From Watersipora subatra (lineage: Eukaryota > Bryozoa > Gymnolaemata > Cheilostomatida > Watersiporidae): a DNA stretch of 64,000 nt. The DNA is taken from positions 4,960,001-5,024,000 of the forward strand of contig NC_088711.1 of assembly GCF_963576615.1 (NCBI RefSeq), in the 5' to 3' direction. A model generated the notes under the pieces. It was not told the origin of the DNA. It saw nothing but the letters and a program-made list of their open reading frames with translations, and did not search any database. A program made the position numbers and the translations under genes. Shown here one piece after another: positions 21,310-64,000 of the stretch; position 1 is the stretch's first letter, and every line of letters starts with the position of its first letter.

Positions 21310-21312
21310 AAC

Positions 21313-21344
21313 AGCTAGGTGCCAGTAAAATCTGGCACCTAGCT
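21313..21344. repeat. Perfect 13-bp hairpin at LINE 5' junction
   Basis: AGCTAGGTGCCAG and its exact inverse are separated by TAAAAT, directly upstream of the truncated retrotransposon reading frame. Confidence 0.85.
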
Positions 21345-29641: not shown

Positions 29642-30391
29642 TCTGCACTCACTCTGCGATGATAGAAAGGGCAATACAGGACCTCTTACTAGTAGCAATA
29701 GTACGAGTACTAATATCGCTATAGGTTATTGCAAATATGTCGCGCTTGTTACAGACCAGCATGGAAGCTTTGCTCATTTCAGATATATAAATGGTATGAG
29801 ATGCAAAAACTCATTCTTTATTCTTTGCAGCCCTTGCACTTGATGAACATCAGTAGGTGAACCGCAAGTTTTCTTCTAAAGGTAAATTCATGATACGAAT
29901 TAAGCATGACATGAACTCTAGTAAAACAAACATAGCTTGCACTCAAAATTAACGAAGATGCATTTTTATGGCAGTAAATGATGTATTGCATTCATAATGG
30001 CGTTCTCAATGAAAACAATATCAGCTATTTTGCAGGGCCACCAAATTGATAGAGCTGTTGATGATTTCGGTTAACAAAAAAAAAATGGTAAGAATTATAA
30101 ATGAAGCATGATGGGCATGAGACTTTGATTTGGGCAACAGCCACTTTGATATGTTGTTTTATGCTTACTTGTCAGTCTAATAGCTCGGTGAAAAAAGATA
30201 AATTGCCTCACTTTTATTGAGGATTTATAAATGTAAATCTGCAAATACCTATTGTTTAGAGTATTTATCAAACATACAATTTATTATAAAAGTATTCTAA
30301 TTAAACACTATATGCAGTGTTACAGAATAAATAGAAATTTGTAAAAAAAGAGGCACAGATGTATGCCAAGATCCACTATTGTTTTCAGCTT

Positions 30392-36065: not shown

Positions 36066-36637
36066 TCATAAAACGACTGAATAAGGTTTTTCATCAATGA
36101 CGCAGTGGTTGGATATGCCATCTGCTGTGTCCGTAAGGTGTTTCCCAAGGCATAGCACATCACAAGATCCTACACTACTGATAACATACACTACACAATG
36201 AAGTGGATCTGGCTTTGCATTAATACGAAAGTATCGATCTGCAGCTAGCAGGATCCTGATGACACTGTCTGATGGAGGCACCAATCCTTCATTGTTTTGT
36301 AGCTCGAGTAGAGTATAGAGATGTCGGTACTGGATACTTGACTTAGTGGTAACCAGCGACTGACGGCCAATGTCACGTGACAGCACTTTAGTTAGCTTTT
36401 GCACAATGTAGCCAGCTATATAGACTATGTTTGTTAGCTATAACAGAAATTTCACATCTGAAATCATTGTGAGATCCACAAACTGATCAACTCCTGGAGT
36501 AGCCTGTATGATGAGAATCTGGTTTTGAGCAGTAACATTACCTGTCTTACCAGCATCTGATTTTGCACCAACTTTGCTGAGAAGTTTGCGAAAGGTAGCC
36601 TTAAACTGAGTAACAGTAGGATTATCATTCGAACCAC
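36066..36637 (-). pseudogene. P-element / THAP9-like transposase C-terminal fragment
   Basis: The minus strand reads NDNPTVTQFKATFRKLLS, then after about 45 codons an in-frame TAG (36440-36438), then VYIAGYIVQKLTKVLS and NNEGLVPPSDSVIRILLAAD to a TGA at 36068-36066. In P-family transposases the C-terminal region has the same order: an NPTxxQFK block, YIAGYVVRKL, then GGLxxPSxxV. The usual Cys pair after YIAGY is absent (SRDIGRQSL). An acceptor-like ttttttttag precedes 36637. The N-terminal THAP domain and most of the catalytic core were not found nearby, so this is a dead remnant. Confidence 0.72.
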
Positions 36638-41389: not shown

Positions 41390-42402
41390 TGAAGAGAATT
41401 TTAACTAACTTGCATCAATTCGATTACTATACAGTTATTATAGTCACATCTAGACTGTCCATGAGATGATAATCCTGTATACTAGCCATGAGAGGATAAC
41501 CCTGCACACTAGCCATGAGAAAATAATGCTGTATGATAACCACTGCTCACTGCAGCCTGTGGCAATTAATTCTAAGTAATGTACATATATAGACAGGCAA
41601 AGGCCTCAGCGACTGCTCAAGGCCATCCTTCCTGAAAATAATGGAGCCTTTTTTAAAAAAGTCTGAAAGCATACTTATTTTCTCTCCAATTTACTTGCTG
41701 CAAAAAGTGACGCACCACCATTGGTTAAATATCTTGGGGAGTTTTTTCAAAGAGATTAAGACTATTTAATTTTAAAGAGCATAGCTGACTGGCTGCTGAT
41801 AAGGTCTTGGTTGTACTGATATCGGACATTGCAGACTAGTACATGTGTATAAAAAAATCTCTTTGTATTCGGCTCCTTGTTGGAACAATCCTACACTGGT
41901 AGGGCATTGATTATGAGTAAAACATAACTGCTTCATTCAGCCTATTCAACGTTTGCATGCAGTTTTAGAAATTATGTTTGATATTGATTTTAGTATCAAG
42001 TGAAACTTCTCTCTTGGAATTTCCAATGTTTTCTTCTTGTCGTTTGATTGGATTATTAGACTCCCATCTTTTGCATCCATTGTGACCATTTGATGTCAAA
42101 ACCAGCAGGTGACAGGTAGTTGAATCTTTGCCGTCAAGGCTCCAGCAGTACAAGTTATAGAGAGCAATGGGTAAGATAATCTAGGTGTTCATTCTTCTGC
42201 TATGTGCCTGTATAGTTGTTAGTTGTGCAGTTGTATGGTGGCACGGTTGTACAGTTGCGCAGCTGTACATTTGTATAGTTGCGCAGTTGCACAGTTTCAA
42301 AGTTGTAAGAAGACTGGAACCTGCAATGAATGTATTGTAGACTAGAATATAATGTAACAGTTCTAGCTAGAACTAGATTAATATTGACAGTTTATGGGAC
42401 TA

Positions 42403-44799: not shown

Positions 44800-44894
44800 A
44801 TATGCTTCAACTTTCCGGTATAACAAACTCTAGTCTGATTGTGAGAGGAAAAGTTAGATTCGCCATTTGCCGAACAGATATTACAGACTGCAAA
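44800..44894 (+). CDS. Macrodomain-PARP gene: linker exon 1
   Basis: Reads GKVRFAICRTDITDCK, aligning with KVKLSIVHGDITESK of linker 2, the strand that opens a macrodomain. The acceptor is AG at 44798-44799 and the donor is GTTAGT at 44895. An ATG at 44802 could be the initiator if this is the first coding exon. Otherwise the exon starts in phase 1 and earlier exons were missed. Confidence 0.7.
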
Positions 44895-47800
44895 GTTAGT
44901 AATAATACACTCTATTAGCTACAGCACCAGATTCTTATGGTTCAGCATTTGTTGTCCTGCTGTTATTATCATCTATATTACTAATGCTGTCCAAGCAGCA
45001 CTTGGTATTCCATGCTACATATCAGCTACTTATACTAACAAAAACATTGTTTTTTCAAACTTCTAGATAGCAAATTTATTCTGAAAAAGTTGGTTTCCTT
45101 ACCCCTGTTAGCTCAAGTGGGTCGTAATGTTTACGCAAGCTCAGGTCTCCTGCCAGACATTTAAGAGTTTGAGCAGTCAAAATCTTAGCCGTTTTAAATA
45201 GCACACTTTTTCTGCAACTGACTTGTGTTGATTGTTGCTGGTATATAAACAAGCCACATTTGATGTACAGGGGTTATTGAACCCAAAGCGCCAATGACTA
45301 CTGGGGTTACAGATTTTCTTACATGCCAGCACTTTTCAAACACTTCTCCGAGTGGGAGATATTTTGCCATTTTCCCTTTTCTTTACAGGTTATGTTGTAG
45401 GCATTGGGTACAGCTACATCTATTATAGTAACCCTCTTGTTCTCCTTGCCTATCACTATGATATCTGGCTAGTTTGCTAAGATATGCTTGTTAGTCTGGG
45501 TCTAGAGGTTCCAGAGAAGATTAGCATGGTCATTCTCATTGACCTCCTCTGAAGCTTTCCACCAGTGTTGTGGCTTATTAAGGCATCACTACTCATCGCA
45601 CAGACCTTGGTACACCAAACCTGCAACATGATTATGTATCTTAGTGTATGCAAGTCTGGCTAGCTGCTTGCATCCACTGATTATGTGTTGGATGGTCTCT
45701 GGTGCATCCTCGCACAGTCTGCATCTATAGTCATTTCTTGTGTGATAGATCTGTGTTTAGAGTTGCCTAGTTGGGAGCCCATGCCCCTGCACTGCCATGA
45801 TGAGTGACTCTGTATTGTTAATTAGGCCACCTTTGTTCAGCCACACATAATTATGTTTGCTAGAGGTCGCCGACCTCATATATTTGTCATTGGTGGGTAC
45901 ATGGAGAGGTTTGGTATGCCATCCAGGTTCCTATTAAGTTTTCAGTTCTAATGTCACAACAATAGAGTGGAATTTATCAACATTCCACCTGCTTTGCTTT
46001 TTTAGGGCGCAAATATGTCAATTTTTTCAACTAAAGGGCATCGATCCCGTCTGGTTCAAGTGCTGCCTAGTTTTTCATATGCTGCACATTGCACTTACTG
46101 CCAGTTTCGCTGACAGTGAGTCTTTGATTGGCCACAACATGTTGGTGGCTTTGTGTGAACCTCTTTAGCCAATTGGCAGTGGTGTTATGAGTACCATCTT
46201 CCTCAAATATGTCCTTTCAAAACATTGAGGGAAGAGATTTGGAAGGATCTGTAATTTGCCTTCGCAACACTCTTGGGATTCCGGTTGAATATGTTGATTT
46301 ATTTTCATGTTATCCCACTCTTTGATCTACTGCTTCAGTGGCATAGAGAGTTCTATTAGTTGCTGTTCAGCAGATTCTAGAACTTTTATGACTTCTCTAT
46401 TTGGACTCGCCAAATTAGGTCTTTTATCTTTCACTGAGTTAGCTAACTTTCTTGCGCAAGCTGTTGATCTTATTTTAAAGGCTCATCTGCCAAGTTGGTC
46501 TGGAAGTTTGATGCCTGGCTGACAGTAGTGTAATACCCACCTCATCTCTAAGGTGATGGTTTCTGTACCATAGATTAGTGTGTTAGTCTCAGTGATTGAT
46601 TCGGTTGGGATGTATTCTAGTGCTAGGTTAATATCTTTGAGCAACTTCTTAGGTACGACTTTTCTGACTGGCCGAAATGGTATCCTACCTCCATGGTCAG
46701 TAGCAGCTGAAAGCGGGTTGATTTCGTTTGTAATCTTTTGAACAACAAGTCAGGAGTATCAGGTTCAAAGTACATGCCTTTATCAACTTCAGTCAACAGA
46801 AGGAGTTTTATGTTTATTTTTGCTGCTGAGTTTAGGCCCACATTCCTCATTGGCAGAGGTCACTTAAGTTATCTGTTATCTGATTTCATCTACTTCAAGT
46901 TCTGATATCAACTGTTTCCTGACTGTTGCTCAATGTTAGCAGTCATGCGTACACATGTTGCATAAAAGTATGCGGCATGTGTGTATGATGGCGTACAGTG
47001 GTGTACATATGTACATCCCTGTACACACACACACACGCACGCGCGCACGCACACACAAACACTCTCTGATTAACATCTTAGTATAGACTAGGATGTTAGT
47101 CAGAGTATAAACTAAAATGTTAGTGAGAGTATAGGCTAATAAGAGAACAGCATAAGTGATTAGTTACAGCTGTATATAAATACTAGCTTCTAGCTATTTG
47201 TTGGCACAGCAGCGGGCGAAGCTAGGTATACATCTCTTAATAAACGCTGTTGATGATTCAGTCGACTGTTAATAATGATACTAACTAAAATGCTGTATAA
47301 CATCTGTACACATGTATATGTTCAAATTAAGACCTTTATGTAATAATAGTTCAATTCTATAGAACATTTGCTGGGAAATAAACTTTACATATGAAAACTA
47401 TCTTTTCCTAAACTATTTATCATTGCTTGCACAAAATTCTTGTTCATGAAAACTGAGAAGTTAATTGGGCATACAAAATCAAAAACCTTGCTAGACAAAG
47501 AGTCAAAGTTTAACAATATGAGATAGCATTTATTTTGTTTGTTTACGCCTTTCACACTATTGGAACTATTCCTCATTTCCTGGGTTCTATTTTTTCAAGT
47601 TTATAACTTTTTCTGGCCATACATATTTTTCTTTTTATTCTGTTTAGGAAGACGTGTTGGTGAATTTAACAAACAGCGACTTAGACTTTTCCTTAAATAG
47701 CACTTCAGCCTTACTCGCTGAAAAGGGAGGAGAAAAGTTTCAAATGGCCTGCAAAGCAGCTGGAGAGTTACAGGAAGGAAATATCGCCGTTGTTTCTGGA

Positions 47801-50800
47801 TTTAGACTGAGATGCAGAGAAGTGATTCACTGCAACCTTTCCCTGCTGCCCAGTAGGGGTGAGAGAAAAGCTGTGAGTTGTTCTAAAGTGTTTGACTCTT
47901 TTCAATTCTGAGTTTTTGTACAAAAAATCCTAAACTAATAGTTCTAACTGGTTTCCAATGAGGTCAGACATTTCAAAAATATCAAACTGTCCACAACATC
48001 TGAGGCTGTATTTGCTGTCGCAGAGTGGCATTCAATCTCATAAACTAAAACAGGCAATGGTTTATTTTGATGAAGGTAATATTCACAAAAGGGATAAAAA
48101 TCCTAAGCACGTTATCTACCTGGTCATTCCTTCCAGATACGCACAAATTATAAAAATTTGTGGATGTTACTAAGTTTTTACTTTAATACTGTTACCAAAA
48201 GCCTGAATATTATCCTTTCTGCATATTCAGTCAGTTGCCTTTCTGGCAGGTGGTTTCTCCATTTGCCAGTGACATTCTGGAACCAATTGAACACATTACA
48301 ATCATAAAACTTTTCTTTAGATATTTAATTAATCACTGAAGGCATCGAATGCTGTTAGCTTTTTGAGTAAATATGGACATGGACATGGAAATATGGACAT
48401 GGTTGCAGAAATACCAAAACATCATCAAAAAGTGTCTTGTAAAAACAGCCGCATCGCGCTATAAGTCGATCAGCATACCTGGTGGCAGCAGAAACTCGGG
48501 CTACATGGTAGGAGACCCCATCTGTCAGTGGATACTGGAGATCCTGCATGACCACTGTGACCTTCACAGAAGGAGCTCTCTCAGGAGTGTGAGAGTTGTC
48601 ATACCTGTCAGTGACTCGCTGGCTCAAGAGGTATTATGAAGCTTGAGTATTATGAAGCAATTCTTTACCAGTATAAGACAGTATCAGACAGTATAAGACA
48701 GTATAAGATTGTATAAGATAGCATAAGACGATATAAGACAGCATAAGACAGTATAAGATTGTATAACAGCACAAGGCTGTATAAAAGAGTTCAAGACTGT
48801 ACAAGATTGTACAAGAAGTGTTTTAGACAGCGTATGACAACATAAAACAGCGTTTCAGACAGCGCAAGACAGCGTTTAAGACAGCGTATGACAGAGTATA
48901 AAAGTTTATGACAGTTTATGACAGCGAAAGACATCGTAAGATACAGCGTAAAACAGTGTATGACAGCGTATGACAGCGTATGATAGCGAAAGACAGCGTA
49001 TGAGAGCATGAGACATACGCTGTCCTAAATGACAGCGTAATTCAAATAAATTCGAATGCTGTCTTACAACATCATTTGAATGAATTTTTATGTGCTAATA
49101 TTGACCAATCATTGATCTGCCTCCTCTGAGATGTGGTTTTTGTGATGCATTTCAACTGTTGCATACACTGTTGCATATTCAGCTCAATTCCATATAAAAA
49201 AATTTTTTATCATCGCATGTTTCATGTAATCAAAATTTGGGGTAATTACCTCTTTTTTCGTATTGTTAACCTTACATGTGCACATTCAGTTTTATTCCAG
49301 CTAGATGAATCTGAAGGTGTGCAACATTGTCCTTATCCAGATGAAGCAAAAAATTCATAGCATCAGGAAGAAAGAATTCCGTTTCAACTATTTGTATCAT
49401 ATACGTCTGACACTCTAGAAGTGGACATGATTTTGGTTATACTTTCTTATGAGTTGACGGATTTAAAAGGTTAACAGATCTCAAGAGGCAAATTACTGTT
49501 AGAATGAAATACTTAAGGAGAGCAAATCACCATTCATTGTCATGGAATGAAGTTGCAGAATAGTTGTTATAAATTTAAAAGAACACAGCTGCAAAAATCT
49601 AAAAACTATTTTACGATTGATTTGAAAAAACAACATATTTTTCCGACATTGAGTTTAACACGTTGTAAATAAATTTTTTTGTTTGCATTGAGCCTCATCT
49701 TTATATTAATCAGGAAAGTTCAATGAAAGCAAAACAGTATTCAAATAAATTTTAATGTGATTTTACATACTTGTAATGACAGGCTTGAATATTTGAGCAA
49801 CTGTTGCTTAAAAAATTGAGTTTTTAACAAAAGATCCATAATTATATCTGTGGTAGGATCTTTGCTAGCTCGAAGTTGGTGTTCTTAGTATTGACTGTAA
49901 TCATTCATGTTTGTTATTGATTTGCGCTCTCAACTGTGCACAAGAACTCTGAACTATTAAACGGCTTTTTCAAGTTGAAATAACTGCTAATGAAATTACC
50001 TTGCTGGTATTACAACTATTGTTAACAATCATCTGTATAGGCATCTCTTCTGGCCGCTCAAAAAGGTTCAGTGTATTAGAATCAACTAGCTTTTTGATGA
50101 ACAAAACAAGCTAGTCTATGGGCTTTTATTGCAAACGATGAATGCTACTTTTCAGTTGTCTCAGTACTTGAAAGGCTTGAAAGGCACTGCACATGTAATC
50201 CTTTTAAATGGCTGGTTCTACACGCTTCATGTCCCCACTTATGAATTAGCTAGGTGCTGGCTACAATTTAGACAGCCCTACTGGTTCTTGCTTACTTGAA
50301 TTGTTATGAAAACATCTCCCAATCATATGCAGAGCTTTGACAGCACCATGTTTGAACTGATGCCTAAAAGAATCATAGACAGACACCTGACAGAAGTGAC
50401 AGACACGACCATGATTATAGGTGACAAGGTGAAGCTCTCCATTGTCCATGGTGATATCACCGAGTCCAAGGTGAGAAGCGCTTTTATTGCCAGACATACA
50501 GGCTTGGTTAAAGCTGCTACTGTTAATTGGTTTGTGTCATCTATTTTGTCTAGAAAAAGGTAAAGGGATTTAATGAAGCTCTGTGTATATACATGAACAT
50601 GAATGTATTGAATAGCAGTCTAAAGTATTCAGAGTGTGTTCTAATTGTTTTCTAGTGTCAGTCATTCTAATAAAATGTATGTAGAAACTGAACCTATGAG
50701 CCTATCCTCCTACAACCTCCCACAACTTAATCAGAACTTACTTTAGTTGTAGTCGGGTGTTCATGATGCTGTGCGAACTACTTCAAATTGTCTTTTGTTA

Positions 50801-53800
50801 TTAATGATATCTGAAAAACAAGTTATGATTTTTTTTAGTCTTTTTAATAATGTGTGCTTTGACTTAATTAGATTTATAAATAAATTTGCATCATTCATTG
50901 ACTTTTAAAACCTAGTTGTACTATGACAATACTAGACCTACACTATAGTTTACTACACAACACTATCCTACACTGTATTACAGCATCCTAGACTATACAT
51001 GACTATACCGTACTATACCGTACTATACCGTACTATACCATAATATACCATACTATACCATACTATACCATACTATACCATACTATACCATATTTTATCC
51101 TATTATACCGTACTATGCCATACTATATCCAGAATTACTATACCGCGCTATATCGTACTGTACCATACTATACTGAGCTATATCGCATTACAGCAACCCA
51201 TATCGCATTATACCACACCAGACAGCATTAGACTAACCCATATTACAGTTAATTATATTTTACTAACTGGCACTAAATGACATTATAGTTGTAATATAAC
51301 TAAATTTTAGTCAGATATTGCCAACAGAAAGTTACATTTATGTATTGAATAGCAGTTCAAAGTGTTGCTAGACTGTTCTATTTACTTCTATTAATATACA
51401 TTAGTTCTATTAGGTTGCGTATAGAAACACCAGCATTATGGTTTGAGCTGGGACTTGAATCTGAATATACAACCTTAAAGCACCATCTTACTTTTTATAA
51501 TAATAATAACAATAATAGTGCTAGAAATTCCCCTGCTATACAGCCCATGATTAAAGTAAAATTGGAAAAAAGAAAGGGTACTGATGGTTGAGAAATGCAA
51601 TATTAGCAGTCAAATGGCACTGCAGTGCAATAGGATAACTGCAATGGTAGCTGTAATGTACTGGGTGTGGGTGTTATTATATACAACAAACAGCAATAAT
51701 GAAAGGAAAAGATTATATGTTTATATCTCTCCCCCTGCAATAGGAGAAATGCAATATTAGAAGAAAAATGTACTGATGTTATTAGAATAACCAATATTAT
51801 TAATATAGTAGTAATACAGTAATAATAGAAAACCAATGCACAATTTTGTTAACATTTCAAAACCTCACAGCTAACAATATCAAGAAGTTGTGATATTTAT
51901 ATAGATTTTTAGCAAATCTAGTTAGCAAAACTATTTAGAAAAATAGTAACAGTAACATATTGCCCAACATCAATCACTATATACTTCGATCTTGTAAATC
52001 CGAATGCTTATTCTTATAATTAAATATTGTAATAATCTCATAAGAATTGTTAAAATGAATATCATTGTCTTTTCCTTTACTTCCACTGCTTTGGACATCA
52101 GTTAGAATACCAAAGTACTCAAACGTGTCCAAAATGTCAGTCGCAGTCATATTTCAGTACTTCTACGCTAATTACATAAACCTTCGGCAATTCGACAATG
52201 CTATAGACTGGTGAAATATGCATGTTCTCTTTACATGACATGCGCATGACTTAATTGTTCTATTCTCTGTCGCTCGGCGTTTCGTTTGCCGGTCTTAATT
52301 TTGATAAAAATAAGGCTTGGCAAGTTTTAATAACGATTTTAGGCCGAATTAATCAGTCTATTTATGTATAATGCGATCAGATGGGTGAGGTTTAGGAAGT
52401 TTTCTACAAATAACAAAGACTTGGTAACAAATCTAACTAGGTTTATATGAGTTTTGTATCATTATTATGCTTAAGCGACTCCATTGAAAAATGGTTAAAT
52501 TTGTTGATGAGATTTCGGTACAAGGGTTTGCGACGGCCGTTTATGAATAATTTTCGTGAGTTGTGTGCACATATGCATTTATCATAAATTTCCCAACCAA
52601 TCGCTTCGCTCGTGTTTGGTCGAGGGAATATTCACTTAGGCAATAGTTTGATCTTTAGAAAATTACATTAACTTTTTTGTGTGAAAGAATTGTTGCTCAG
52701 TTAATTCTCCATATTGTTTCGCGGTTTAGTTGCCTTTTGCTGTTGCATTCAGTCTTCAGAGGTTCTTATTTAAAAATTTATTATTATATGTCCTTTGCCG
52801 TTTAGGATGAAGTAATTGTGAATTCTGTTGGAGCTGCCATAGACTTGTCTAGAGGTCATGTAGCCCCTGCACTAGCACGCAGAGCAGGGCCAAAGCTACA
52901 AGCAGCATGTAAAGCATTGGCTCCTTTGAAAGTAGGTGATATTGCTGAAACTGATGGCTTTCAGATGGGATGTAAGATACTTCACTGTAACTTGGCAAAG
53001 TATGAAGATGAGGCGACTAACAAGCTGGTAAAGTTTATTCACTGAGCATTTTACTTTAAATTCTGATTGGTGGATGTTGAATAAATATCATATCTGATAT
53101 GCTGACGTGACCACGATTTAATTTGGCTCAAAATGTCAATGAAGAAAAACTGGTGTGAGTGCATCACTTTCAACCTCTGAAAAGCAAACATGTCTCATGA
53201 TTGCTTTATAGAGTGCATATGCAATCTGTAACACAATCATGAACTTCAAACGGCGCTAGTATTTACGAAAGCGTTACATTTACGTTACTAATTCATTAGT
53301 ATGGCAAGGACAGCGTATTGGGTAAGCTTGCTGGCCTGTAGACTTAGAGTTTATGAGTTCGAACCTAATGCGAAGCAAATTTTTTGTTCCAAAAACTTTA
53401 TTGCTATAACTGGAGACACAAATGACAGACAGACAAACAGGTTTATATATCTGTTAACTTCCTTCATGAGTTATTCTGAGATTGGTGTAGCTTCAAGGAG
53501 TCAGTCGACTTCTTTTACAGTAACACACTTGCAATAGTGATCTGGCACCTGCCTGTCTCTCACCCGCCCAAAACCTATTGTCAGAGAGACCAATGACTTG
53601 TACATTGTCAGAATTCTCATTTCTAGCAGTATCACTAATTTCTTCTACAAAATCTGTGAATAAATTATTACTACTGTTTCAGGATCAGAACTAAACCGAG
53701 AATGGATATATGTAGAATAGTTTATTTCAACTTGTAAGTAACTAGATGTGTAAACATATATAGCTTAGTGTCGATTGGCTACCTTGTCTAGGACCTACTT

Positions 53801-56800
53801 GTGATATGTGTACTAGCTTATCCAGCATCTAATAAAAACATTAGAAAGCTCTGCTTGTCCGCTTGTATAGCCTTAGTTATCATAATTTCAATGAGTCAGC
53901 ATTGCTTATTTGATGTCTGTGTATTGATGAAAAGTGATTGAACTGCTCTGAGGTGTGTCTGAATGCTCCATCTTGGCTTTCCTCTCATCAGATGAAGTAA
54001 TGTCTCAAAAATGTCATTGCACAACAACAGCCTTTATGAAATTATGACATAGTCACACAAACCTACATGAAAATATTTTCTGACAAAGCGTGGTGCGTGG
54101 TTCTTATTTATTATGTATTATTCTTATAACTTTGTAGAAAATAAAAGAACTCATGCACAAGTGTCTAACGAAAGTTGCGATGAGTAACTATAGCTCTATA
54201 GCACTGCCTGCTCTTGGTACGGGATCTTTGGGTTACCCTGCAGAGCTTGTGGCAATGTGGATGATTGATGCTATTATCGATTACTGTGAGATGTTTCCAA
54301 GGAGCTCTCTTACAGCTGTTGACATATTCTTATACAGTTCAGACAGAAAAACTATTGAGGTTCATGGTGATGTCTTCTTTTCTTAACTATTTCTCTATTA
54401 TATCATCATTAAATTCCCCTTTCATTGTAGACTCACTCTCTTAATTAATTCATATTTATTTTTAATCATCTTTAGAGGTTTTTATATACAACTTTAGTTT
54501 GTCAAAAAAATCTTCACTTCATAGTTGTTGAAAAATATTTCAAAGCTCGATGAAAACTTTTTTATTTGCAGAGTTGTGTTTGCTTAGAAATTAATTCCAA
54601 GTTTTCCCTAATATTTAATCAAACAAATTTTTATTTTATCTTATTCTAAATGCTATTATTATCATTGATAGTTCAAGAAAGTAAAGGAATAGATTACAGC
54701 GCGGCGTTATGTAATATTTGTTAAACTATGACAAGTTCATACAAAAGTTAGCTTTACAAGAGCTACATATTCTAGGAATGTTGTTGCCAAGGTAACCTTT
54801 TAACAATGCCTAAGAGATGGTAATTGTGATAATGACTCAATATACAGTGTAGCTGTTGATAACTTGCGCATAGATATAATTTAGGACGAGTCATTTTGTT
54901 CTGCAAATTATAAATAGACCAAATGCAAAGTCACTTATAATAGAAGTTAACGCAGCTGTTAAAAATAATAGCTGTTTTCTGTTGTATTTAGGGTTTTGAG
55001 AACTTCATGAGCAGCTTTGTGTACAAGGAGGGTACAGATGAGCACCTATTAATATACAACCGAGTTCACTTGGACCTCGTCTGGCAGGATCTTACCGATT
55101 CTACCGTAAGTTGACCTTACGATATACTGTAGTTAGTCTGTAGCCTGGGACACATACATAGCTGACCTGGTGACATATTTAGTAGGTAACTATGGAAACA
55201 TACATACAGGTTTGGTGATATATTTAGTATGTTAGACTCATTTACATAAGAGTTTGCCATGGCTTTGGGAGTTGTTATCAAATTAGGTATAAAAAGTCTA
55301 TCAAAATGGAAAGAATAAACCGCATTTGAAGGATTATCTTGTGGCTGAACTTCAACTCAAAGTGATAGATGTTCCAGCTGCTTTAGATACTTGATACTGT
55401 GGGCAGAAATAATTGTGAACATATCATGTAATAGAGGTGGTATTGTGTGCAGACAATGTTTAAACATATCATGTAATAGAAATGTAACCTTGCCTATAAT
55501 AGCTAAGGGGTAATGTTATTTAATGCCGTGCATGCTCATGGCACATGTATCCTTGCAGGAAGATCTCGTGGTAATTAGCACAAGTTCTAAAGATCCGGTC
55601 GCGGAGAAAATAAAGCAGAAAGCGGGCCATGAACTGCAAAGGGTTTGTTCCAAGTTCAACACCTTGACAGTTGGTAGCATTAAAGAAACCCAAGCTTATA
55701 ATATGACCTGCAAAAACATTATTCACTTCAACTGTCCACCAAGTCAAGATGGGAACACAGATGTAAGTAACATTTTATATAATTTCCAATGCTTGTCAAA
55801 TTTATTCTGACACCGCTATGTATGAATGCTGATCTTTTTATTAGAAAATATAAGTTTTACCTCTCTAAAGGCATAATAATAAAGCAAATATAATAGCAGC
55901 AATATAATTATTATTACTGAGTAAATTTGATTAAGGAATATACATATTTTTACATAAACCAATCAATTATATAATATATTCCTTGTGCTTTTAGAGAAAC
56001 AAATATGCATAAGTGAGAACATGCATAAGTGAACTAAGTATTATTATTAATATTATTACTGTTATTTTTTGATAAGGTGGCGATATGGTGTATCGCCACC
56101 TGCTATTAAAAAAAATTAAATTAAATCTTTCAACAAGTGAATAAAACCTAATTACCAATAAAGAGTTACGTAGATTACATGATGACGACAACAAGCCCAA
56201 CGCCATGACTAGCTATGCTATTGCGTATTATGAGCCTCATCACTCTTCCAGCTTTTTTCTTTTGTTTAACTAATTTTGTTGATGAAAATAAATCACAAAG
56301 AAAAAAAAAACTATATTTCATTGCCATATTTATAATCCATGCTAAACATGACATACCTCACTAAAACACACTGTTAGTCATGAAATATCTCACTCGTGAC
56401 ACATCTCACTTGTGACACATCTCCCTTGTGACACATCTCATTTGTGACACATCTCACTCGTGACACATCTAACTTGTGACACATCTCACTCATGACACAT
56501 CTCTTTCGCGACACATCTGACTCGCAACACATCTCACTTGCAACACATCTCACTCACAACACATCTCACTTGTGACACACCTCACTCGCGACACATCTCA
56601 CTTGTGACACATCTCACTCGCGACACATCTCACTCATGACACATCTCACTCATGACACATCTTTTTCACGACACATCTCACTTGCAACACATCTCACTCG
56701 CGACATATCTCACTCGCAACACATCTCACTCGCAACACATCTCACTCGCAACACATCTCACTCGCAACACATCTCACTCGCAACACATCTCACTCGTGAC

Positions 56801-59800
56801 ACATCTCACTTGTGACACATCTCACTTGCAACACATCTGACTCGCAACACATCTCACTTGCAACACATCTCACTTGTGACACACCTCACTCGCGACACAT
56901 CTCACTTGTGACACATCTCACTCGCGACACATCTCACTCGCGACACATCTCACTCGCGACACATCTCACTCGCGACACATCTCACACATGACCCATCTCA
57001 ATCAAGATATTTGTCATGTATCGTAATACCAAAGAATGACATTTTCGGTGTATTTTGGCTTATATGTGGTATATCAACTTTTTGGAGCTCTTTCAAGTCT
57101 CTGGCTTGCGTTAATGCCAGAACTAGTTTATTAAATCTACTAGTAGTCACATATACCATAACATTTGGGATACGTATAGTGTGGTTTTGGCATATTTTTC
57201 TTTAGTTGAACAGGATTTTAATGGTAGTCTATTGACTTACTGCTGCTCTAAATTGATTATTTCTAAGCGATGCCCTTGCAACATACTTGTACCAGGTTTG
57301 TTACTCACAACCTACATGTACATGTATCTGTTGTTAAGGTACTGTTGCATACTAATCTATTTTTGGTTATAATCTAGCTAATGCAAAACAAGCATATACG
57401 CTCATGACTTGTTTCCCGTCGATTACTGAATCTTAATAAGAAAGGTCAATGTCATATGGTACGAGAGCACAAAAATCCTAAAAAATTCTCCTCGCAAGAA
57501 CAAAAACATTAAGCAGCGTCATTTCCTAATACATGGAATATGGATTAACATGGTTTACAACATATTTTCCCAAAGCAGAATTCCAAATAAATTTTTGAAA
57601 GTCAAGATAAAACTGTTTTATTGCAGGCTCTGCAAGGCGTAGTCAAGGCATGTCTAGGCATATGTACAGTGAAGAAATATCGATCCATAGCTTTTGCTCC
57701 AGATAGTTTCACAAGTGAAGACTATGCTGCAGATGTAGTTGCTGACTCCGTGCTGGCTGCTATAGCCGATTTCAGTCAGCAACATCCCCAGAGTTGTCTT
57801 ATCACCATCAAATTCTATCTGTCTCCTGACAGCACGACAACCGCTGTCAGAGAGGTGATCCTTTTCAATGGTGTAGTTTTGTATGCTTGGATTATTTCTT
57901 AAACTCTGTATGAGAATTTAGCAGAAACAAGTAGGTAAAATCTGTACATACAATCCATGTATGTTACACAGCATCTTTTAGTTCTGTCAATGACTATGAA
58001 GAAACATTGGTTTGCTCGCGATTGATTCTTGCTGCTAATACAGACCAATTGGTCTAACAGTCGACCAATCGGTTCCCCTCGCTGATTACATGTTATATTC
58101 TCTTTGGCTCTGCTCAAAAACTAAATATGAATATTGAAGCTTTTATTTTGTGAAAATTGATTACACAATCAAATATTACAGAAATCTTTCCAACGTTGCA
58201 ATACGTATTTATGAAGGTAAAAAGAAGCTAATCAGTATGGGCTGCCATATGATATTCTGTATTCTGCTTTCTAATTTTGTTGCTTCTATCTGCTACTGCT
58301 TTTTTTTGCTGACACGTATTTCAATGAGTCAACAGTTTTTGTAACAGGATTTCAAGTGGTCTGTGCGCCGTCATGGAATAAAAAAACTCTCTGACGGATA
58401 CTCCTTGGCAAACAAAACTAAACTAACAGTATGTAAAGGAGACTTAGCAGAGACATCTGTGAGTATAAGTAAATTGTTCTAGAACAATCTTCTTTCCTTG
58501 CTTCCTTTGAATAACTAATTGAAACACTACTAATACAAATGGCATTAAATTAACTTCGTAGATACATTCACCTTCTGACGATTCCATTTAATACCCTTCT
58601 TATTGTTGGCTTTTTATTTACTCAGGCCGACTTCATAATCAATTCAACAGGAAGTCACATGGCTTTGTCAGGTGGCAAGACATCTCTGGCTCTGCTCAAC
58701 AAGGCGGGTCAGGCATTGCAAGAGGAGTGTAATCGACACGCTCCCATAATAACTGGTGATATTGTGATGACCGAGGGCTTTGGACTGCCCTGTAAGCAGG
58801 TGCTACATGTCTGCTGCCCAAAACTCTGGATCAGAGGAGAAACAGAGCAGGTGGGAATCTATTTTTATGCAATTGCAGTAGTTAGAAGAGATATATTTTT
58901 ACAACTTGCATTTTTGATTTTCTTGTACAATGTTTTTTTACTTTTGATTCAATTCAGAGGTGTTTAGGAACAGTATTTCGCGAAATATAATTGTTTCCAA
59001 AACTGAAATTAGCTTCCATCTCATCCAAAAGCATGGCCAGTTCATAATATTAATGCGTTGTACTTCCCTCGCTGTCAGACTTAAAATTGTACCTGGGTGT
59101 TTAGAGATTAAGGGACCTGATCATAAGATGCCTGTCCTGGGCAGATGACACAAAAGCAGAGAGTCTTGCTTTGCCACCTATCGGTACGGGACTCCTAGAG
59201 TACCCTCCTCAATCTGTGGCCAGATGCGTGGTGCACGCTGTTGCAGATTTTGCTCGGCTGAACCGAAAGTCACTTCTGAAGAGTATTTCCCTAGTCATCT
59301 TTTCAGCTGATGAATCTGCTATTGAGGTAAGTTAACTCTTAATTTACAACTTTTTGAATATGGTTGAAGCTGGAATGGCTGGTTTGGTAGATTTATTCCA
59401 ATTCGACATTAATGATTTCTAATTATAATACATTATGTCACAGCTGAGCTTAGGGCAAAGAGACTGGAACATTTTTTTTTATGTAACAGGGTTGGTAGAT
59501 AAACCAAACACATGCATCAACAAAGTTTAATAAGAACAACAACAATGTTAGAATTACAATAATATAAATATACAAACTTTGACTTTAACTAAGTTTAAAT
59601 TCAGATCAACGTTTCTTTAGCAAGAAGTCAGCCAGGTGCTACCTACTGCTTACACCAATGTCAGTAAAAATCAGCTTTAAAATGACCATAGTATTATTAA
59701 TGCTATAATTTTTAGTTATATTGTTTTCTAATAGCACTCTCTTGTATCTGCCGCCGTTCATTACTTTGTGCATTGCGGATTTTTCTATAAAACTATTTAA

Positions 59801-62800
59801 TCTATTTACAGATAATTACTTTTGAAAATGATTCTTAATAGCTACATAAATTTACGGTGAATTGTGCTTATATACTTGACAAGTTGAAGCCAGTCATATA
59901 AAAACTAATTTACAAGTATTAGCTATGATTTTTATTATTGTCATTTAGAAGTCATGTCTGTCAGTCCAAATTCTGGTACAGTAATTGTAACGTTATGACC
60001 TTGGCAACCCAATATGACAACTAATATGACCAAACAAGTCCCGAGTTTAATCCGTTGGCTTTTCGAAGTGTAGAAATGAAGTCGCTACTTAAGATAACAT
60101 TTGGTACATAACGAGTCTTCCCATTTATTAGATGAAAGTTACAATACATACATGCACTTTGTTTGTTGGGATATAAAATCAAATAGTAAAAAACACATTC
60201 AAGTACTGATATTACAGCTAAACAAACAAAACTGGTGCATATGAAGGTCGTAGCTGAATTACGCCAAAGAGATACCATAGTAATTATTTACTAACAAGAA
60301 TGTTATCCACTAATAAATACGCCAGTTTCGATGAGCTACTGATCTTGTTGTTACAAAGAATGTTACCAGGTTAAGGTCAGTTCCGTCAGAACACACCACA
60401 TGTATTGTTGATGATACAAGCTACAGGACGCGTATAAATATGTGATAATATTTAGATATTATCACATATTTGTCTGCGTCCTGTAGGTTTAGCTATTTAT
60501 TACATGAATGTCAGTGTTGATTATTAATGTGTTCTTTTCAACAGTTCAAACCAAAAAAGCTCTGAAACAGATTGCTCAACTGATACTGTTAACTTATAAT
60601 ACATAAAACTTGCATATACAAATCCTAGTAGGACCATGCTGGAGACATGGTTGATCACATATAATGCGGTTGGTAAAAAAAAATGCTACAGTTTCTACAA
60701 TTGATCCCGATGTCTATGTAACTGAATGGTTTAGCTCCACTGTAGATTACACTGAGTACTGTGTTGACAAGTTATTTTTATAAGAGTAGTGTTCTGCCTT
60801 AAGATGATAAGTGATTTATGGCAGGACATGAATTCTTATACTGAATAAAACATAGAGTTTTCATATCTGCTTTGTCATCATTTAAATCTCAATATTCAGC
60901 AATCTTATGAGTCTATGCTGCTTTACGCTGGAAATCTAGGAGTTTTTTTTACTTTGTGGTCTTCAATTAATTAATATTTCACTTATTTCTTAAGTTTTTT
61001 GTTTGTTTTTAGGGTGTTGAACAGGCCCTTGACTTCCATTTGGAAGAACAGATAACCGGCAAGGTTGATATGACATCTACTCTGCAAGATGGAAAAACCA
61101 TTGTTGGTCTGTTGGCTATATGATGATTGGCAGCATATTTTCGTTATAGTTACTTGTTGTAAATTACCCCTTGGGCTTTCTTCAATGTTCAATGCCTAAC
61201 TCTACATATGATAATATCACTGCTACAGTGAGGCTTTTTATGATGGAGACAGAGAATGTTATTTTTCAAGATTCGATTGGTGAGCAATTATGTGAAACAT
61301 CTAGCAAAAGATATTGTCAAAAGAAGTCACAAAAACGCTGAAGGCGCAGCAAGTGTCATTAAAGTAGTGATCTACAAGGTTACGTTTAAATTAAACTGTA
61401 TTTAGCTCATTGGTTAGCTTACTAAATCTTGGCATACAGTATATTGCAGGCAACACAAGTACTATGAATATTCAGATGCAGTTGTTACATTAAGTATTCA
61501 AAAGTTTTTCTCATGAGACTTTATGTATACATTGTTAAAGACTTGGAAATTTTCTAAAAGAATATAAACTATAATTTACTATTTTTCTAAGGAAATGAGC
61601 AAATGTCTGAGAATGATTAATCAAAATGTCTGCCTATTTTGACTGCACACCCCAATTTTCCCGATGTGTAAATGAGTTTTAAGACTTCCTCTTCAGTTGT
61701 ACTGCATACACAAGGCTAATATTAAACACAATACTTTGTATCTCAAGTCTGTGAAGTCCGTTTGAGTTAAAACTTAACATTTATATGACTTTGAGCTTTA
61801 GTGACTAGTTGTAAAGAGTAGACAACCACTGACTTTTTATCAATGACACGCAGTGTGTGTCAATTCTGGGCATTCTCACTCCACAAATATTCTCACTCCA
61901 CAAATAATAATTCTCATCTCCACAAATATCATATTGTGGGCAATATCTGTGGAGTGATATTGCCCACAATCTGGGCAATATCACTCTACAAATCACCATT
62001 TGCGCAATTTAAGCAGCTTCCCATTTCCTAGTTACTTCAAATTATTAAATTTGAAGTATTAGTTTGAATTCTGCCTCAGCAAATCTTTTAGATCTACCCA
62101 ACCCTTGGGAAAATCCAGTGCACGAGTTTCGGGAATGTCGTGTTAGGAAAGGCACAAGGGAGTACAAAGATGTCATCACAGATTTGAACAAAACTCTGAA
62201 TAGACCAACAGCAACCATAATAGAGGTAAAATTTCACTGAAATACTAATAATCTCTCTCACTCATTACTGGGCAGTGACCCAAACTCAATCATCCCACTT
62301 GAGCTGTGAACTGGAGTATCACCTTGGGATTAGAGAAACTCGAGATAGTAAATCTTTAATAACTGCTGGTGTTACACTTGAATGTTCTCTATACCTGGTC
62401 TAGTCGGGTAGAGAGTATCAAGTCAATCTTTAATAACTGCTGGTGTTACACTTGAATGTTCTCTATACCTGGTCTAGTCGGGTTGAGAGTATCGAGTCAA
62501 TCTTTAATAACTGCTGGTGTTACACTTGACTATTCTCTATACCTGGTCTAGTCGGGTAGAGAGTATCGAGGAATTTGTTCTCAAAGCTCCCATTATCACT
62601 TGAATTTTCTTCATCTCAACTTTTAACCTTTCATAATAATAATAATCTGTAATCATTTTTGTGAAGAAATACTCGTTGGTGCAGCTAACAGCCCTGTTAA
62701 GATTGGCTAACATCCTTAGGAATGTCTTGTCTATCTTAACCTATAGTGGAACTAGGTCAAAGAGAAAAAAACAACACCAGCTTAAGCTGTAACAAACCTA

Positions 62801-64000
62801 TAATAATAATAATAATAATACGGCTAGTTGGTAAAGCAATAACGATAAGTAATGATATTAAATAAAGATAGCAGTTTGGTAAAGACAAGGATTCTAAAGA
62901 AGTTGTACTATGACTTTAGGTATGTATTTAAGTACTAATGGTTGATGAAGTTTAGACTTTAGGAACTTTTTCAGTTGAAAAGTATTTTGTCAATCCTAGC
63001 ATACTAAATCAACTGATGAAAATGATACTTGCCCTAACATTCAAGTATTTAACCTATATATTGTCATGATTGATCGCCTAGTGGACACGCTCCTACCTAT
63101 ATGAGCAGTGCTATGATATATTTGGTTGGAGTATGAGTTTTGATTGTTAACACTTGACTTGATGAGAATTTACCTGGTTTACATTATCTAAACATGAAGA
63201 TAATTTAGTTAACTGCTAGCATAATCATTTGTTATTTATTTGTTAACATGTCATTTGAATAAATACATGTAGTTATCATACTTCATGTATCTTTAGGTAC
63301 CTACAGTTCTGACAGTTCTGTAACTAACCGGTACTAGTCCTAGATTGTCTTTCACAGGTAAAGCGTATACAGAATCCAGAAACCTACCCACTCTATGACA
63401 CAATGAGAAAAAGTGTTGCTAGAAAACTTAATAAACAAGAGGCTGAAGTGGAGACCGCCCCACTCTGGCATGGCACAAGTGAGAGCAGTGTGTCTAAGAT
63501 TGTTAGGACCAAGTTTGACCGTGGAACAGCTGGAGGTAAGAACATGATAGAGTTAGTTATTTAATGAAGCTATATGATTGATTTTGTTTCCATCTCATGA
63601 AAGAAAGGAGTGTAAATACGCAATGGTAGTGCTAAGGGCTCTACCATTGATACCAGCTAGTATTGATACCAACTAGTATTAATTTCAGCTAGTATTGATT
63701 TAAGCTAGCATTGATTTCAGCTAACTTTGTTTGAAAAAAAACTTGTCACAGACATATCCATGATCTAAAATACCTCCATCTTGTATTTTTAAAAGCTGAC
63801 TTACTCTGGTACTTACTACCTTCAAGGCAAAATAAAAAACTTTGAATTTTATATCATGAGCTCACGAGTTCCTGGAATTGCACTCATTTTACAGATTACC
63901 AGCATCTAACTCTCTACTCAAAAACAAAATTAATGAATGCTAGTGTTATTTCTATTGGTTATTTGCTGTATTTGTAGGAAAATTGTTCGTTAGGACTAAC
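44800..64000 (+). CDS. PARP14-like multi-macrodomain ADP-ribosyltransferase, partial (runs off right edge)
   Basis: Macrodomains bind or hydrolyse ADP-ribose; the C-terminal PARP fold transfers it from NAD. Supported exons: 44800-44894, 47648-47872, 48409-48630, 50333-50470, 52806-53027, 54138-54359, 54992-55105, 55559-55762, 57627-57854, 58348-58458, 58626-58850, 59105-59326, tentative 61013-61123, then 62080-62225, 63358-63535 and 63978 onward. Four macrodomains are each split over two exons and preceded by a linker exon; nearly all junctions are phase 0. ALPALGTGSLGYP (macro 2) and LPPIGTGLLEYP (macro 4) are phosphate-loop motifs; RIQNPETYPLY and LWHGTSESS are PARP-domain motifs, with the NAD-contacting His in WHGT. 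No WWE domain was found. Vertebrate PARP9/14/15 act in interferon and DNA-damage responses; a comparable role here is inference. The N-terminus and the macro-4/PARP junction are unresolved. Confidence 0.88.
45240..46850 (-). mobile_element. Fossil retrotransposon with zinc knuckle and restriction-like endonuclease (RLE-type LINE)
   Basis: Minus-strand fragments read WLNKGGLINNTESLIMA, then the CCHC knuckle CRLCEDAPETIQHIISGC (about 45670-45722), then PDIIVIGKENKRVTIIDVAVP-like sequence near 45400-45468, which fits the PD-(D/E)xK core of restriction-like endonuclease LINEs (R2/R4/NeSL group). Stops and frameshifts interrupt it throughout. The reverse-transcriptase part upstream (46.0-46.85 kb) is barely recognisable. 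It lies in the first visible intron of the macrodomain-PARP gene, in antisense orientation. Confidence 0.65.
47018..47060. repeat. CA/CG dinucleotide microsatellite
   Basis: Alternating ACACAC and GCGCGC tracts, a possible Z-DNA-forming run in the first visible intron of the macrodomain-PARP gene. Confidence 0.85.
47648..47872 (+). CDS. Macrodomain 1, N-terminal half
   Basis: 225 bases in phase 0, EDVLVNLTNSDLDF onward, through the GNIAVVSGFRLRCREVIHC strand pair. The DVxVN start is kept, but the glycine-rich GGGVA loop is replaced by SLNSTSALL. The donor is taken as GTGAGT at 47873; a GTGAGA at 47859 is an alternative with a different phase. Confidence 0.85.
48409..48630 (+). CDS. Macrodomain 1, C-terminal half (loop degenerate)
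   Basis: 222 bases in phase 0. YKSISIPGGSRNSGYMVGD aligns with ALPALGTGSLGYPAE of macrodomain 2, but the GTG motif is lost. It ends SDSLAQE before GTATTA. Confidence 0.85.
48661..49020. repeat. Decamer-like array (GACAGTATAA / GACAGCGTAT)
   Basis: About 30 imperfect copies of a 10-11-base unit that drifts from GACAGTATAA on the left to GACAGCGTAT on the right. It starts about 30 bases after the macrodomain 1 C-half exon. Confidence 0.85.
50333..50470 (+). CDS. Macrodomain-PARP gene: linker exon 2
   Basis: 138 bases in phase 0, SFDSTMFELMPKRI through KVKLSIVHGDITESK, with the GDIT motif that precedes macrodomains. Acceptor atatgcag, donor GTGAGA. Confidence 0.88.
50945..51240. repeat. Decamer array (TACTATACCG / TACTATACCA)
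   Basis: A clean 10-base period for about 130 bases (51000-51120), with degenerate flanks. It lies in the intron between linker exon 2 and macrodomain 2. Confidence 0.85.
52806..53027 (+). CDS. Macrodomain 2, N-terminal half
   Basis: 222 bases in phase 0, DEVIVNSVGAAIDLSRGHV, then GPKLQAACKAL and VGDIAETDGFQMGCKILHC. Acceptor tgccgtttag, donor GTAAAG. Confidence 0.9.
53300..53460 (+). repeat. tRNA-derived SINE, solo copy
   Basis: The head reads GCGTATTGGGTAAGCTTGCT with box B GTTCGAACC at 53357-53365, then the family tail TTATTGCTATAACTGGAGAC and GACAGACAGACAAACAGG. It lies in the intron between the two halves of macrodomain 2. It is not a functional tRNA: no acceptor stem pairs. Confidence 0.65.
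54138..54359 (+). CDS. Macrodomain 2, C-terminal half (intact loop)
   Basis: 222 bases in phase 0 with SIALPALGTGSLGYPAELVA, the best preserved phosphate-binding loop of the four. It ends RKTIE before a weak GTTCAT donor. Confidence 0.9.
54992..55105 (+). CDS. Macrodomain-PARP gene: linker exon 3
   Basis: 114 bases in phase 0, GFENFMSSFVYKEG through HLDLVWQDLTDST, with QDLT in the GDIT position. Strong GTAAGT donor at 55106. Confidence 0.87.
55559..55762 (+). CDS. Macrodomain 3, N-terminal half (shortened)
   Basis: 204 bases in phase 0, EDLVVISTSSKDPVAEKI through YNMTCKNIIHFNC. It is 18-21 bases shorter than its paralogues, and the Asn of the usual VNAAN is replaced (VVISTSS). The acceptor is ccttgcag and the donor GTAAGT. 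Confidence 0.87.
56383..56995. repeat. 16-bp minisatellite (GACACATCTCACTCGC)
   Basis: About 38 copies, strictly 16 bases apart for most of the array. Variation is concentrated at the last positions (TCGC, TTGT, TCAT, TTGC) and at GACAC/AACAC. It lies in the intron inside macrodomain 3. Confidence 0.93.
57627..57854 (+). CDS. Macrodomain 3, C-terminal half (loop lost)
   Basis: 228 bases in phase 0. RSIAFAPDSFTSEDYAAD occupies the phosphate-loop position, with no GTG left, so ADP-ribose binding by this copy is doubtful. It ends TTAVRE before GTGATC. Confidence 0.87.
58348..58458 (+). CDS. Macrodomain-PARP gene: linker exon 4
   Basis: 111 bases in phase 0, DFKWSVRRHGIKKLS through KLTVCKGDLAETS, with KGDL in the GDIT position. 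Acceptor ttgtaacag, donor GTGAGT. Confidence 0.88.
58626..58850 (+). CDS. Macrodomain 4, N-terminal half
   Basis: 225 bases in phase 0, ADFIINSTGSHMALSGGKTS through GFGLPCKQVLHVCC. The IIN Asn and a GG pair are kept. Acceptor tttactcag, donor GTGGGA. Confidence 0.9.
59105..59326 (+). CDS. Macrodomain 4, C-terminal half
   Basis: 222 bases in phase 0, RLRDLIIRCLSWADD then SLALPPIGTGLLEYPPQ. GTG is kept and the usual Gly before Tyr is Glu. The acceptor gggtgtttag was chosen because it restores the same 222-base length as copies 1 and 2. Donor GTAAGT. Confidence 0.87.
60421..60486. repeat. 66-base near-perfect hairpin
   Basis: CTACAGGACGC...GTGATAATAT, a 4-base loop (TTAG), then the inverse to GCGTCCTGTAG. 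Arms of 31 bases with about three mismatches. It lies in the intron after macrodomain 4. Confidence 0.85.
61013..61123 (+). CDS. Tentative linker-like exon ending in a stop
   Basis: After tttgtttttag the frame reads GVEQALDFHLEEQITGKVD and reaches TGA after exactly 111 bases, the length of linker exon 4. It may be an alternative last exon. Or it may be spliced internally to the PARP exon at 62080, which needs a phase-1 donor; the only one seen, TTG/GTCTGT near 61107, is weak. Confidence 0.45.
   Translation, partial: GVEQALDFHLEEQITGKVDMTSTLQDGKTIVGLLAI
61933..61970. repeat. Perfect 15-bp hairpin
   Basis: ATTGTGGGCAATATC, an 8-base loop, then GATATTGCCCACAAT, within a stretch of CTCCACAAATAT repeats 110 bases before the first PARP catalytic exon. 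Confidence 0.85.
62080..62225 (+). CDS. PARP catalytic domain, first exon
   Basis: 146 bases starting in phase 1, NLLDLPNPWENPVHEF then TREYKDVITDLNKT. The LPxxW opening and the EYxxV helix are typical of PARP14/15-type catalytic domains. Acceptor ctgcctcag, donor GTAAAA in phase 0. Confidence 0.88.
62351..62572. repeat. 74-bp tandem triplication
   Basis: Three head-to-tail copies starting AATCTTTAATAACTGCTGGT at 62351, 62425 and 62499, with only a few substitutions. In the intron between the first two PARP catalytic exons. Confidence 0.92.
63358..63535 (+). CDS. PARP catalytic domain, second exon
   Basis: 178 bases, VKRIQNPETYPLYDTM through APLWHGTSESSVSKIVRTKF. RIQNP and HGT are the diagnostic motifs, and the His begins the catalytic H-Y-(E/I/L) series. 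It ends in phase 1 at GTAAGA. Confidence 0.93.
63640..63725. repeat. 19-20-bp repeat (CAGCTAGTATTGAT)
   Basis: Four to five imperfect copies of AGCTAGTATTGATTTC-like units in the intron before the last partial exon. Confidence 0.7.
63978..64000 (+). CDS. PARP catalytic domain, third exon (truncated by window edge)
   Basis: An acceptor tatttgtag precedes GKLFVRTN in the frame required by the previous exon. Only seven full codons are in the window, so this rests on phase agreement and position. Confidence 0.6.

Follow-up and report, generated by a model that had tools for sequence, protein, structure and literature searches.

Exon anatomy of the macrodomain array

We analysed a 64,000-nucleotide stretch of the genome of the bryozoan Watersipora subatra (contig NC_088711.1, positions 4,960,001 to 5,024,000 of the forward strand; hereafter the window), which contains a predicted gene with four macrodomains ahead of a PARP catalytic region (Table 1). 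We consider it likely that this gene is a PARP14-like macroPARP whose four m2-type macrodomains descend from one ancestral three-exon, phase-0 cassette that was copied within genes. The gene anatomy, the shared exon junctions, a tree of paralogues and duplicated cassettes at sister loci are demonstrated below at the level of sequence.

Twelve plus-strand exons between 44802 and 59326 make up the array and encode macrodomains M1 to M4, with the exons of each domain running L, N, C. Each of the 12 has an open frame between a flanking AG and GT, and phase 0 is predicted for every one of the 11 internal junctions, in keeping with a preliminary description of this DNA that had claimed phase 0 for virtually every junction. 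The exon lengths given there in nucleotides (nt) were also borne out: 225/222 for the N and C exons of M1, 138/222/222 for M2, 114/204/228 for M3 and 111/225/222 for M4. The 95-nt first exon of M1 stood in part: L1 codes in frame, but its first base is doubtful because an in-frame ATG lies at 44802, 2 nt inside the proposed exon, and the acceptor at 44800 is weak (0.39 bits, matched or exceeded by 24% of the 3814 AGs in the window). The coding sequence of the gene may begin with L1. Phases are mixed outside the array: the downstream exon T3 has a phase-1 end, and an open frame through T2 requires phase 1.

In a full-domain MAFFT alignment made blind to the junctions, each of the four domains has its L/N junction after column 46 and its N/C junction after column 121, so that the internal intron cuts each macrodomain at one point, as had been proposed. 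This N/C junction lies directly before a helix: in an AlphaFold model of a C exon (predicted local distance difference test score, pLDDT, 80.5), residues 2-16 were helical, whereas the model of an N exon was poor (pLDDT 52). The L exons had been described as linkers, a label that does not hold, since they carry the first core strand and a (G)DIT/DLT/DLA motif (RTDIT, HGDIT, WQDLT and KGDLA in L1 to L4) and each macrodomain fold is therefore divided over three exons. The proposed cassette would thus consist of an L exon that supplies strand one and the DIT-like motif, followed by an N half and a C half. Because the ends of the cassette and both of its inner junctions are in phase 0, tandem copying inside a gene could proceed without damage to the frame.

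Profiles built from three copies and used to find the fourth recovered all eight N and C exons (worst E 3.7e-11; best E in the reversed window, 0.13). The same leave-one-out search was weaker for L exons (E 1.9e-5 for L2, 0.01 for L1 and 0.3 for L4), and L3 was not among the matches listed for the window. The open frame of one exon is weak evidence, because 15 of 763 AG..GT intervals of N or C exon length outside the array were also open in phase 0; for whole domains of 180-194 codons, the probability of having no stop was 0.8e-6 to 2.2e-6 at the base composition of the window. The four macrodomains of the preliminary description all exceeded the Pfam Macro cut-off of 22 bits, with 33.9, 61.5, 46.2 and 73.8 bits for M1 to M4.

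Table 1. Predicted exons of the macrodomain array and of the PARP region that follows it
Feature	Position in window	Strand	Remarks
L1	44802..44894	+	First exon of M1; DIT motif; possible start codon 44802
N1	47648..47872	+	N-half exon of M1, 225 nt
C1	48409..48630	+	C-half exon of M1, 222 nt; loop 2 GxG lost
L2	50333..50470	+	138 nt; GDIT motif
N2	52806..53027	+	222 nt
C2	54138..54359	+	222 nt; loop 2 GTG retained
L3	54992..55105	+	114 nt; DLT motif; placed by position, open frame and splice sites
N3	55559..55762	+	204 nt; loop 1 five residues shorter
C3	57627..57854	+	228 nt, as in D1-type cassettes; loop 2 degenerate
L4	58348..58458	+	111 nt; GDL motif; weak in leave-one-out search
N4	58626..58850	+	225 nt
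C4	59105..59326	+	222 nt; loop 2 GTG retained
T1	61013..61106	+	Candidate exon 3′ of array; its own 3′ end unsure
T2	62080..62225	+	PARP catalytic region starts here; open frame needs a weakly scoring phase-1 acceptor
T3	63358..63535	+	PARP catalytic exon; triad H in LWHGT; donor phase 1
Last PARP frame	about 64399-64713		Open; L029:1399-1713; ends 713 nt past window

Catalytic region and gene identity

The pieces downstream of the array point to a PARP catalytic domain. T2 and T3 together scored 24.9 bits with Pfam PARP, just below the cut-off of 26.7, and adding the open frame from the adjoining piece L029, with a guessed join to T3, raised the score to 53.8 bits. The best match of this composite in the PDB was human PARP14 (E 3e-26). 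In the alignment to human PARP14, the H of LWHGT and the Y of GTYF are kept, and a V stands opposite the L of AYPEYL, which we take to be the third triad residue of PARP14; the pattern is H-Y with a third residue other than glutamate, as in mono-ADP-ribosyltransferases. Joined at the sequence level, four Pfam Macro domains lie N-terminal to the PARP domain, the arrangement of a macroPARP. By these features the locus is a predicted PARP14-like macroPARP gene of the mono-ADP-ribosyltransferase type.

PARP14 carries an N-terminal part with RRM and KH domains and also a WWE domain. Pfam gave no convincing domain, RRM, KH and WWE included, in 10 upstream plus-strand open reading frames, and none of these three in the T1-T3 piece. 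The gene resembles human PARP14 in its tandem macrodomains ahead of a PARP domain, and differs in having four m2-type domains, no m1-type domain found in the window and, in the pieces scanned, none of these three accessory domains. It also resembles PARP15 (m2-m3 plus PARP), in which macrodomains of a non-hydrolytic type precede the PARP domain without an m1. Unlike the four-domain gene of the window, PARP15 has two macrodomains and is reported to be restricted to mammals (PMC10221186).

Macrodomain type

The best PDB match of M2, M3 and M4 was PARP14, with its m2 scoring highest. M1 was less clear, matching macroH2A1 and PARP14 m3 at about 40 bits each and PARP14 m2 chains at 31-37 bits. In a tree without paralogues, the array and the human m2 and m3 domains, eight in all, formed one side of a branch with support 80/92, and a pairing of M1 with human m1 was rejected by the approximately unbiased (AU) test (p 0.010). 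We also built two trees with paralogues from the same genome: one of 25 rows (M1-M4, 15 paralogue cassettes and six human domains) and one of 21 rows, from another alignment, without c6bD1, c6cD1, c3d, c11a2 and human PARP9 m2. A branch supported at 80/86 and 87/86, respectively, set M1-M4 apart from human m1 and m3. An m1-type profile (E<=1) matched array exons only within the window, and a single-sequence query with PARP9 m1 gave one weak match off the array (41430-41546, minus strand, E 0.043). Thus the four domains do not fall into tandem m1, m2 and m3 clades as in PARP14; all lie on the m2 side, and we assign M1-M4 to the m2 type from these comparisons.

These results bear on the alternative that the array is the old set of PARP14 macrodomains 1-3 plus one copy. 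PMC10221186 reports a three-macrodomain PARP14 as the ancestral metazoan form, with molluscs and corals included, and in an 11-row tree from which M1 and M3 were left out, human m1 could be paired with either M2 (p 0.078) or M4 (p 0.158) without rejection. Pairings of M2 with human m2 (p 0.17-0.26) and of M4 with human m3 (p 0.21-0.36) likewise escaped rejection in the small trees without paralogues, so M2 and M4 are not assigned one to one to human m2 and m3. Against this alternative stand the rejected M1-m1 pairing, the branch that sets all four domains apart from human m1 and m3, the confinement of m1-type profile matches in the window to array exons, and the exon structure of m1-type domains in the same genome, in which a single exon crosses the N/C site (seven C3 loci). 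We regard it as unlikely.

The cassette in paralogues

We searched the assembly to which the window belongs (783.7 Mb, 239 contigs) and found at least 51 exon-level matches to Pfam Macro and at least 49 with M4 as query (E<=1). Loci are named here by C number and position in Mb, as distinct from exons C1-C4. Twenty-four pieces were fetched, and the junction survey covered 20 of them (L010-L029), using matches with E<=1e-8. This cut leaves out the partial m1-type matches at the seven C3 loci and, at C3:59608374/59608889, part of a third domain; the L/N/C split is absent from all of these. Further macrodomain matches lie outside the fetched DNA, on C2, C7 and C9, at C4:5.72, at C3:59.81, 60.13 and 68.3, and elsewhere. 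A scan of IMG/VR gave one distant locus (L001), which was not used.

In every m2-type exon surveyed in the paralogues (18/18 N and 15/15 C), an AG occupies the column and phase found in the window and an open donor of phase 0 falls within the range expected; phase-0 donors were the only ones sought, and some exons have several candidates. N exons measure 213-225 nt and C exons 222-228 nt. The N/C junction fell in the same column in all 19 aligned cassettes, the four of the window among them, and L exons with a phase-0 donor were recognized in four of 12 cassettes scanned (c3a, c4D1, c4D2 and c6aD1). Both the L/N and the N/C junction thus lie at the set columns in phase 0. The m1-type domains are split elsewhere: at the six C3 loci with both pieces, the split lies after loop 1 and before 'GGxxIQ' (approximate junction). 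Because m2-type exons share their junctions and m1-type domains do not, the cassette appears to mark the m2 type and its regularity to be inherited. By these sequence comparisons, the cassette is an old family trait that predates the window gene and is common to the m2-type domains of the paralogues examined; with one ancestral cassette as their source, the 11 phase-0 junctions do not count as independent observations. Macrodomain intron positions were not found in the excerpts of the PARP14 exon-structure literature.

Two groups of paralogues are the closest comparisons. C4:26.75 and C11:26.94 share the junctions and have a cassette of the type of M3 (type B) and then one of the type of M4 (type C); unlike the window gene, they have two cassettes and no A-type pair in the fetched DNA. 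At the C3 loci (59.6-60.5 and 69.4 Mb), an m1-type domain is followed by an m2-type domain with the same N/C cassette, the nearest kin of M2. These loci differ from the window gene in their m1-type domain with its other exon split, and no catalytic match lay within the 10 kb fetched at each. At least six C3 loci with an m1-type macrodomain lie close together at 59.6-60.5 Mb (L010-L015); at five of them this domain follows an open frame of 512-595 residues, and at five the 10 kb fetched also include an m2-type cassette. At C3:59608374-59609011 (L010), the C half of a third macrodomain has an intron near loop 2, which suggests a third exon pattern and a third domain type.

Cassette duplication and copy number

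Domain duplication by symmetric (0-0) exons keeps the frame, since both ends share one phase; unlike the general case, the unit here comprises three exons whose junctions divide a single fold at two points. The clearest example is C6:56.79, where two consecutive same-strand cassettes share 82.7% DNA identity over 214 bp of the N exon and 72.8% over 206 bp of the C exon, are sisters in the tree (100/98) and are followed by one catalytic region with two matches (E 6e-5 and 5e-20). At C11:23.1 (23.10/23.09), two same-strand cassettes 15 kb apart are 91.6% (N, 261 bp) and 83.8% (C, 346 bp) identical, with matches extending 8-60 nt into the introns. The fetched DNA holds no catalytic match between these two cassettes and a clear one after them (E 8e-10); because none intervenes, we take them as probably part of one gene. 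The suggestion in the preliminary description that a symmetric phase-0 cassette is easily duplicated inside genes is therefore matched by an observed case at C6:56.79 and a probable one at C11:23.1. In our model, in-gene copying accounts for the C6 gene, probably for C11:23.1 and probably for M1 and M2.

Copy number differs between relatives, as had also been suggested. In the fetched DNA there is one cassette at six C3 loci, two each at C4:26.75, C11:26.94, C11:23.1 and C6:56.79, and four in the window. Two further C6 loci have two N exons each; their second C exon lies outside the fetched DNA, and these second cassettes are in no tree.

As a separate observation, the macrodomain loci at C6 56.79, 56.96 and 57.89 Mb (L019/L030, L020 and L021) are near-identical, which indicates recent gene-level amplification. 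A catalytic match was found for the one at 56.79 Mb, the one of the three with downstream DNA fetched.

History of the array

The preliminary description implied that the array had grown by duplication of one cassette. The trees with paralogues do not support a single or fresh expansion: one clade of M1-M4 was rejected (AU p 0.00027 with 25 rows, 4e-5 with 21 rows). M4 grouped with c4D2 and c11bD2 (96/93 and 96/92, for 25 and 21 rows here and below), M3 with the D1 type (91/90 and 95/93), and M1 with M2 (85/90 and 88/90), the last two joining the m2 domains of the C3 loci (78/90 and 72/86). Exon length agrees with the placement of M3, as a 228-nt C exon occurs in all six D1-type cassettes (three near-copies among them) and in exon C3 of the window, and in none of the other 10 paralogue cassettes, which have 222-225 nt; C1, C2 and C4 have 222 nt. 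Furthermore, at C4:26.75 and C11:26.94 the B-type cassette, the C-type cassette and a downstream catalytic match (E 2e-7 and a weak 0.2, respectively) stand in the order M3-M4-PARP. The same B-C order in two paralogues argues that this pair was inherited and that the A part is the extra.

On this evidence M3 and M4 belong, at the level of predicted domains, to two older types, and M1 and M2 lean to a third; the window gene would combine type A (M1, M2), type B (M3) and type C (M4). The preliminary description had named, as grounds for refuting its reading, a tree that places each macrodomain with a distinct ancient PARP14 macrodomain, in which case the array would predate this lineage. We find this for two of the four, M3 and M4, each with a different older cassette type, whereas M1 and M2 are probably sisters. 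Consistent with an old array, the window cassettes lack the DNA similarity seen at C6 and C11:23.1: the longest match between them is 39 bp at 77% in introns and 12 bp in exons.

The reading that one cassette was duplicated in tandem inside the window gene after its split from the paralogues draws on the shared junctions, on BLAST scores of 114 bits for M1-M2 and 108 bits for M2-M4, higher than any to human domains (at most 82), and on a small tree with human, bacterial and macroH2A domains only, which weakly favoured one M1-M4 clade (67/75). We attribute the last result to the lack of paralogues and regard it as superseded. M4 scored slightly higher with human m2 (81.6 bits) than with M1 (77), and M2 is 47.6% identical to a C3-locus domain and 34.7% to M1. 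In addition to the rejected single clade, M2+M4 (p 0.0006, 25 rows) and M3+M4 (p 0.0019, 21 rows) were rejected; M1+M3 alone was allowed (p 0.12, 21 rows). Such an expansion is very unlikely. Two related mechanisms were also rejected. A pairwise origin, M1-M2 giving rise to M3-M4, conflicts with the rejection of M2+M4 and with the separate pairings of M3 and M4 with paralogue domains, so the alternation of degenerate M1 and M3 with competent M2 and M4 does not come from a duplicated pair. DNA repeats as a substrate for unequal crossing-over were rejected on the 39-bp best match; four two-copy repeat families of at least 25 bp occur in the window (27-50 nt), none within an exon.

Several points, besides the allowed human pairings and the small tree described above, weigh against descent of the array from an inherited cassette copied within genes. 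M1 and M3 lie on long branches, and in the 21-row tree M1 could also sit with the D1 type (p 0.17) or with M4 and the D2 domains (p 0.11) without rejection. The 18 N and 15 C paralogue exons include close copies (the three C6 loci, C3 c/d/e and the C11:23.1 pair) and so are not independent. The L exon of the C11:23.1 cassettes was not located in the L-exon scan, so that duplication is demonstrated for N and C, and the locus is possibly two genes, one of them truncated. Finally, the junctions of array and paralogues are predictions from sequence, and splicing, binding, catalysis and any immune role are inferred.

Predicted function and significance

The D of (G)DIT and the GxG of loop 2 are the ADP-ribose-binding motifs of macrodomains. 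The D is kept in all four domains; loop 2 reads SRN, GTG, SFT and GTG in M1 to M4, so GTG is kept in M2 and M4 and lost in M1 and M3. At the column that we presume to be that of F926, the loop-2 aromatic of human PARP14, the residues are G, L, E and L, and the hydrolytic m1 signature is found in none. F926A strongly lowers the activity of m1, and m2 and m3 are stable binders (Torretta et al., PMC10470015). Among the human macroPARP domains tested, only m1 of PARP9 and of PARP14 were active, the first macrodomain of PARP15 being poorly expressed in these tests (Delgado-Rodriguez et al., PMC10221186). The loop-2 residues and these published activities lead us to predict two readers, M2 and M4, two degenerate domains, M1 and M3, and no hydrolase. 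M2 and M4, which retain the ADP-ribose loops, would read mono-ADP-ribosylated targets; M1 and M3 lack the loop-2 glycines, and none of the four appears to have the hydrolytic loop-2 aromatic. The C-terminal PARP domain would write mono-ADP-ribose.

The change of GTG to SRN and SFT, together with the shortened loop 1 of M3, could also mean that the gene is decaying and that M1 and M3 are relics. Two observations make this reading more doubtful still than a single recent expansion: the 12 exons, which have usable splice sites, all lack stops, at a no-stop chance of about 1e-6 to 2e-6 per domain, and no stop interrupts the PARP frame before its end. It is scarcely credible that independent events of intron gain or sliding reached the same sites in each domain, leaving shared positions uninformative on duplication, since even if the loop before the helix at the N/C site is perhaps intron-tolerant, column and phase agree in every m2-type exon examined and recent duplicates carry intron flanks.

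With descent from an inherited cassette preferred, one genome would make the unit of change visible, a three-exon phase-0 cassette with recent in-gene copies beside old ones, and the growth of reader arrays would be testable by cassette counts across species and individuals. It is possible, though less likely than not, that the cassette is actively duplicating in this animal lineage, with independent in-gene copies in the C6 family, at C11:23.1 and probably for M1 and M2, yielding reader-only, possibly antiviral PARPs that differ in their number of readers and whose copy number would vary among species and possibly individuals. In vertebrates, macroPARPs evolve fast, for which host-virus conflict has been proposed, and macrodomain gain and loss is known, as in the elephant and manatee PARP15, which are without the first of two macrodomains (PMC4038475). 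The unit of such gain and loss is not described in the excerpt of that paper.

Other features of the window

Two carbonic anhydrase exons, probably of one gene, lie at 1061-1435 and 5585-5953 on the plus strand (PF00194, E 1.9e-12 and 1.5e-18). On the minus strand, 12247-12501 encodes an exon of the MAPEG family (microsomal glutathione transferase type; Pfam E 5.6e-8), and 29450-29725 looks by eye like a MAPEG exon, with no Pfam match. An open reading frame of 576 residues for a retrotransposon reverse transcriptase, LINE-like by eye, occupies 19612-21342 on the minus strand (RVT_1, E 2.2e-37). A weak match to the C-terminal domain of the THAP9 transposase, below cut-off, was found at 36066-36437, also on the minus strand (E 0.008). 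Long minisatellites occur at 13344-14083 (24 bp x 31) and at 56387-57000 (16 bp x 38), the latter inside the intron between N3 and C3.

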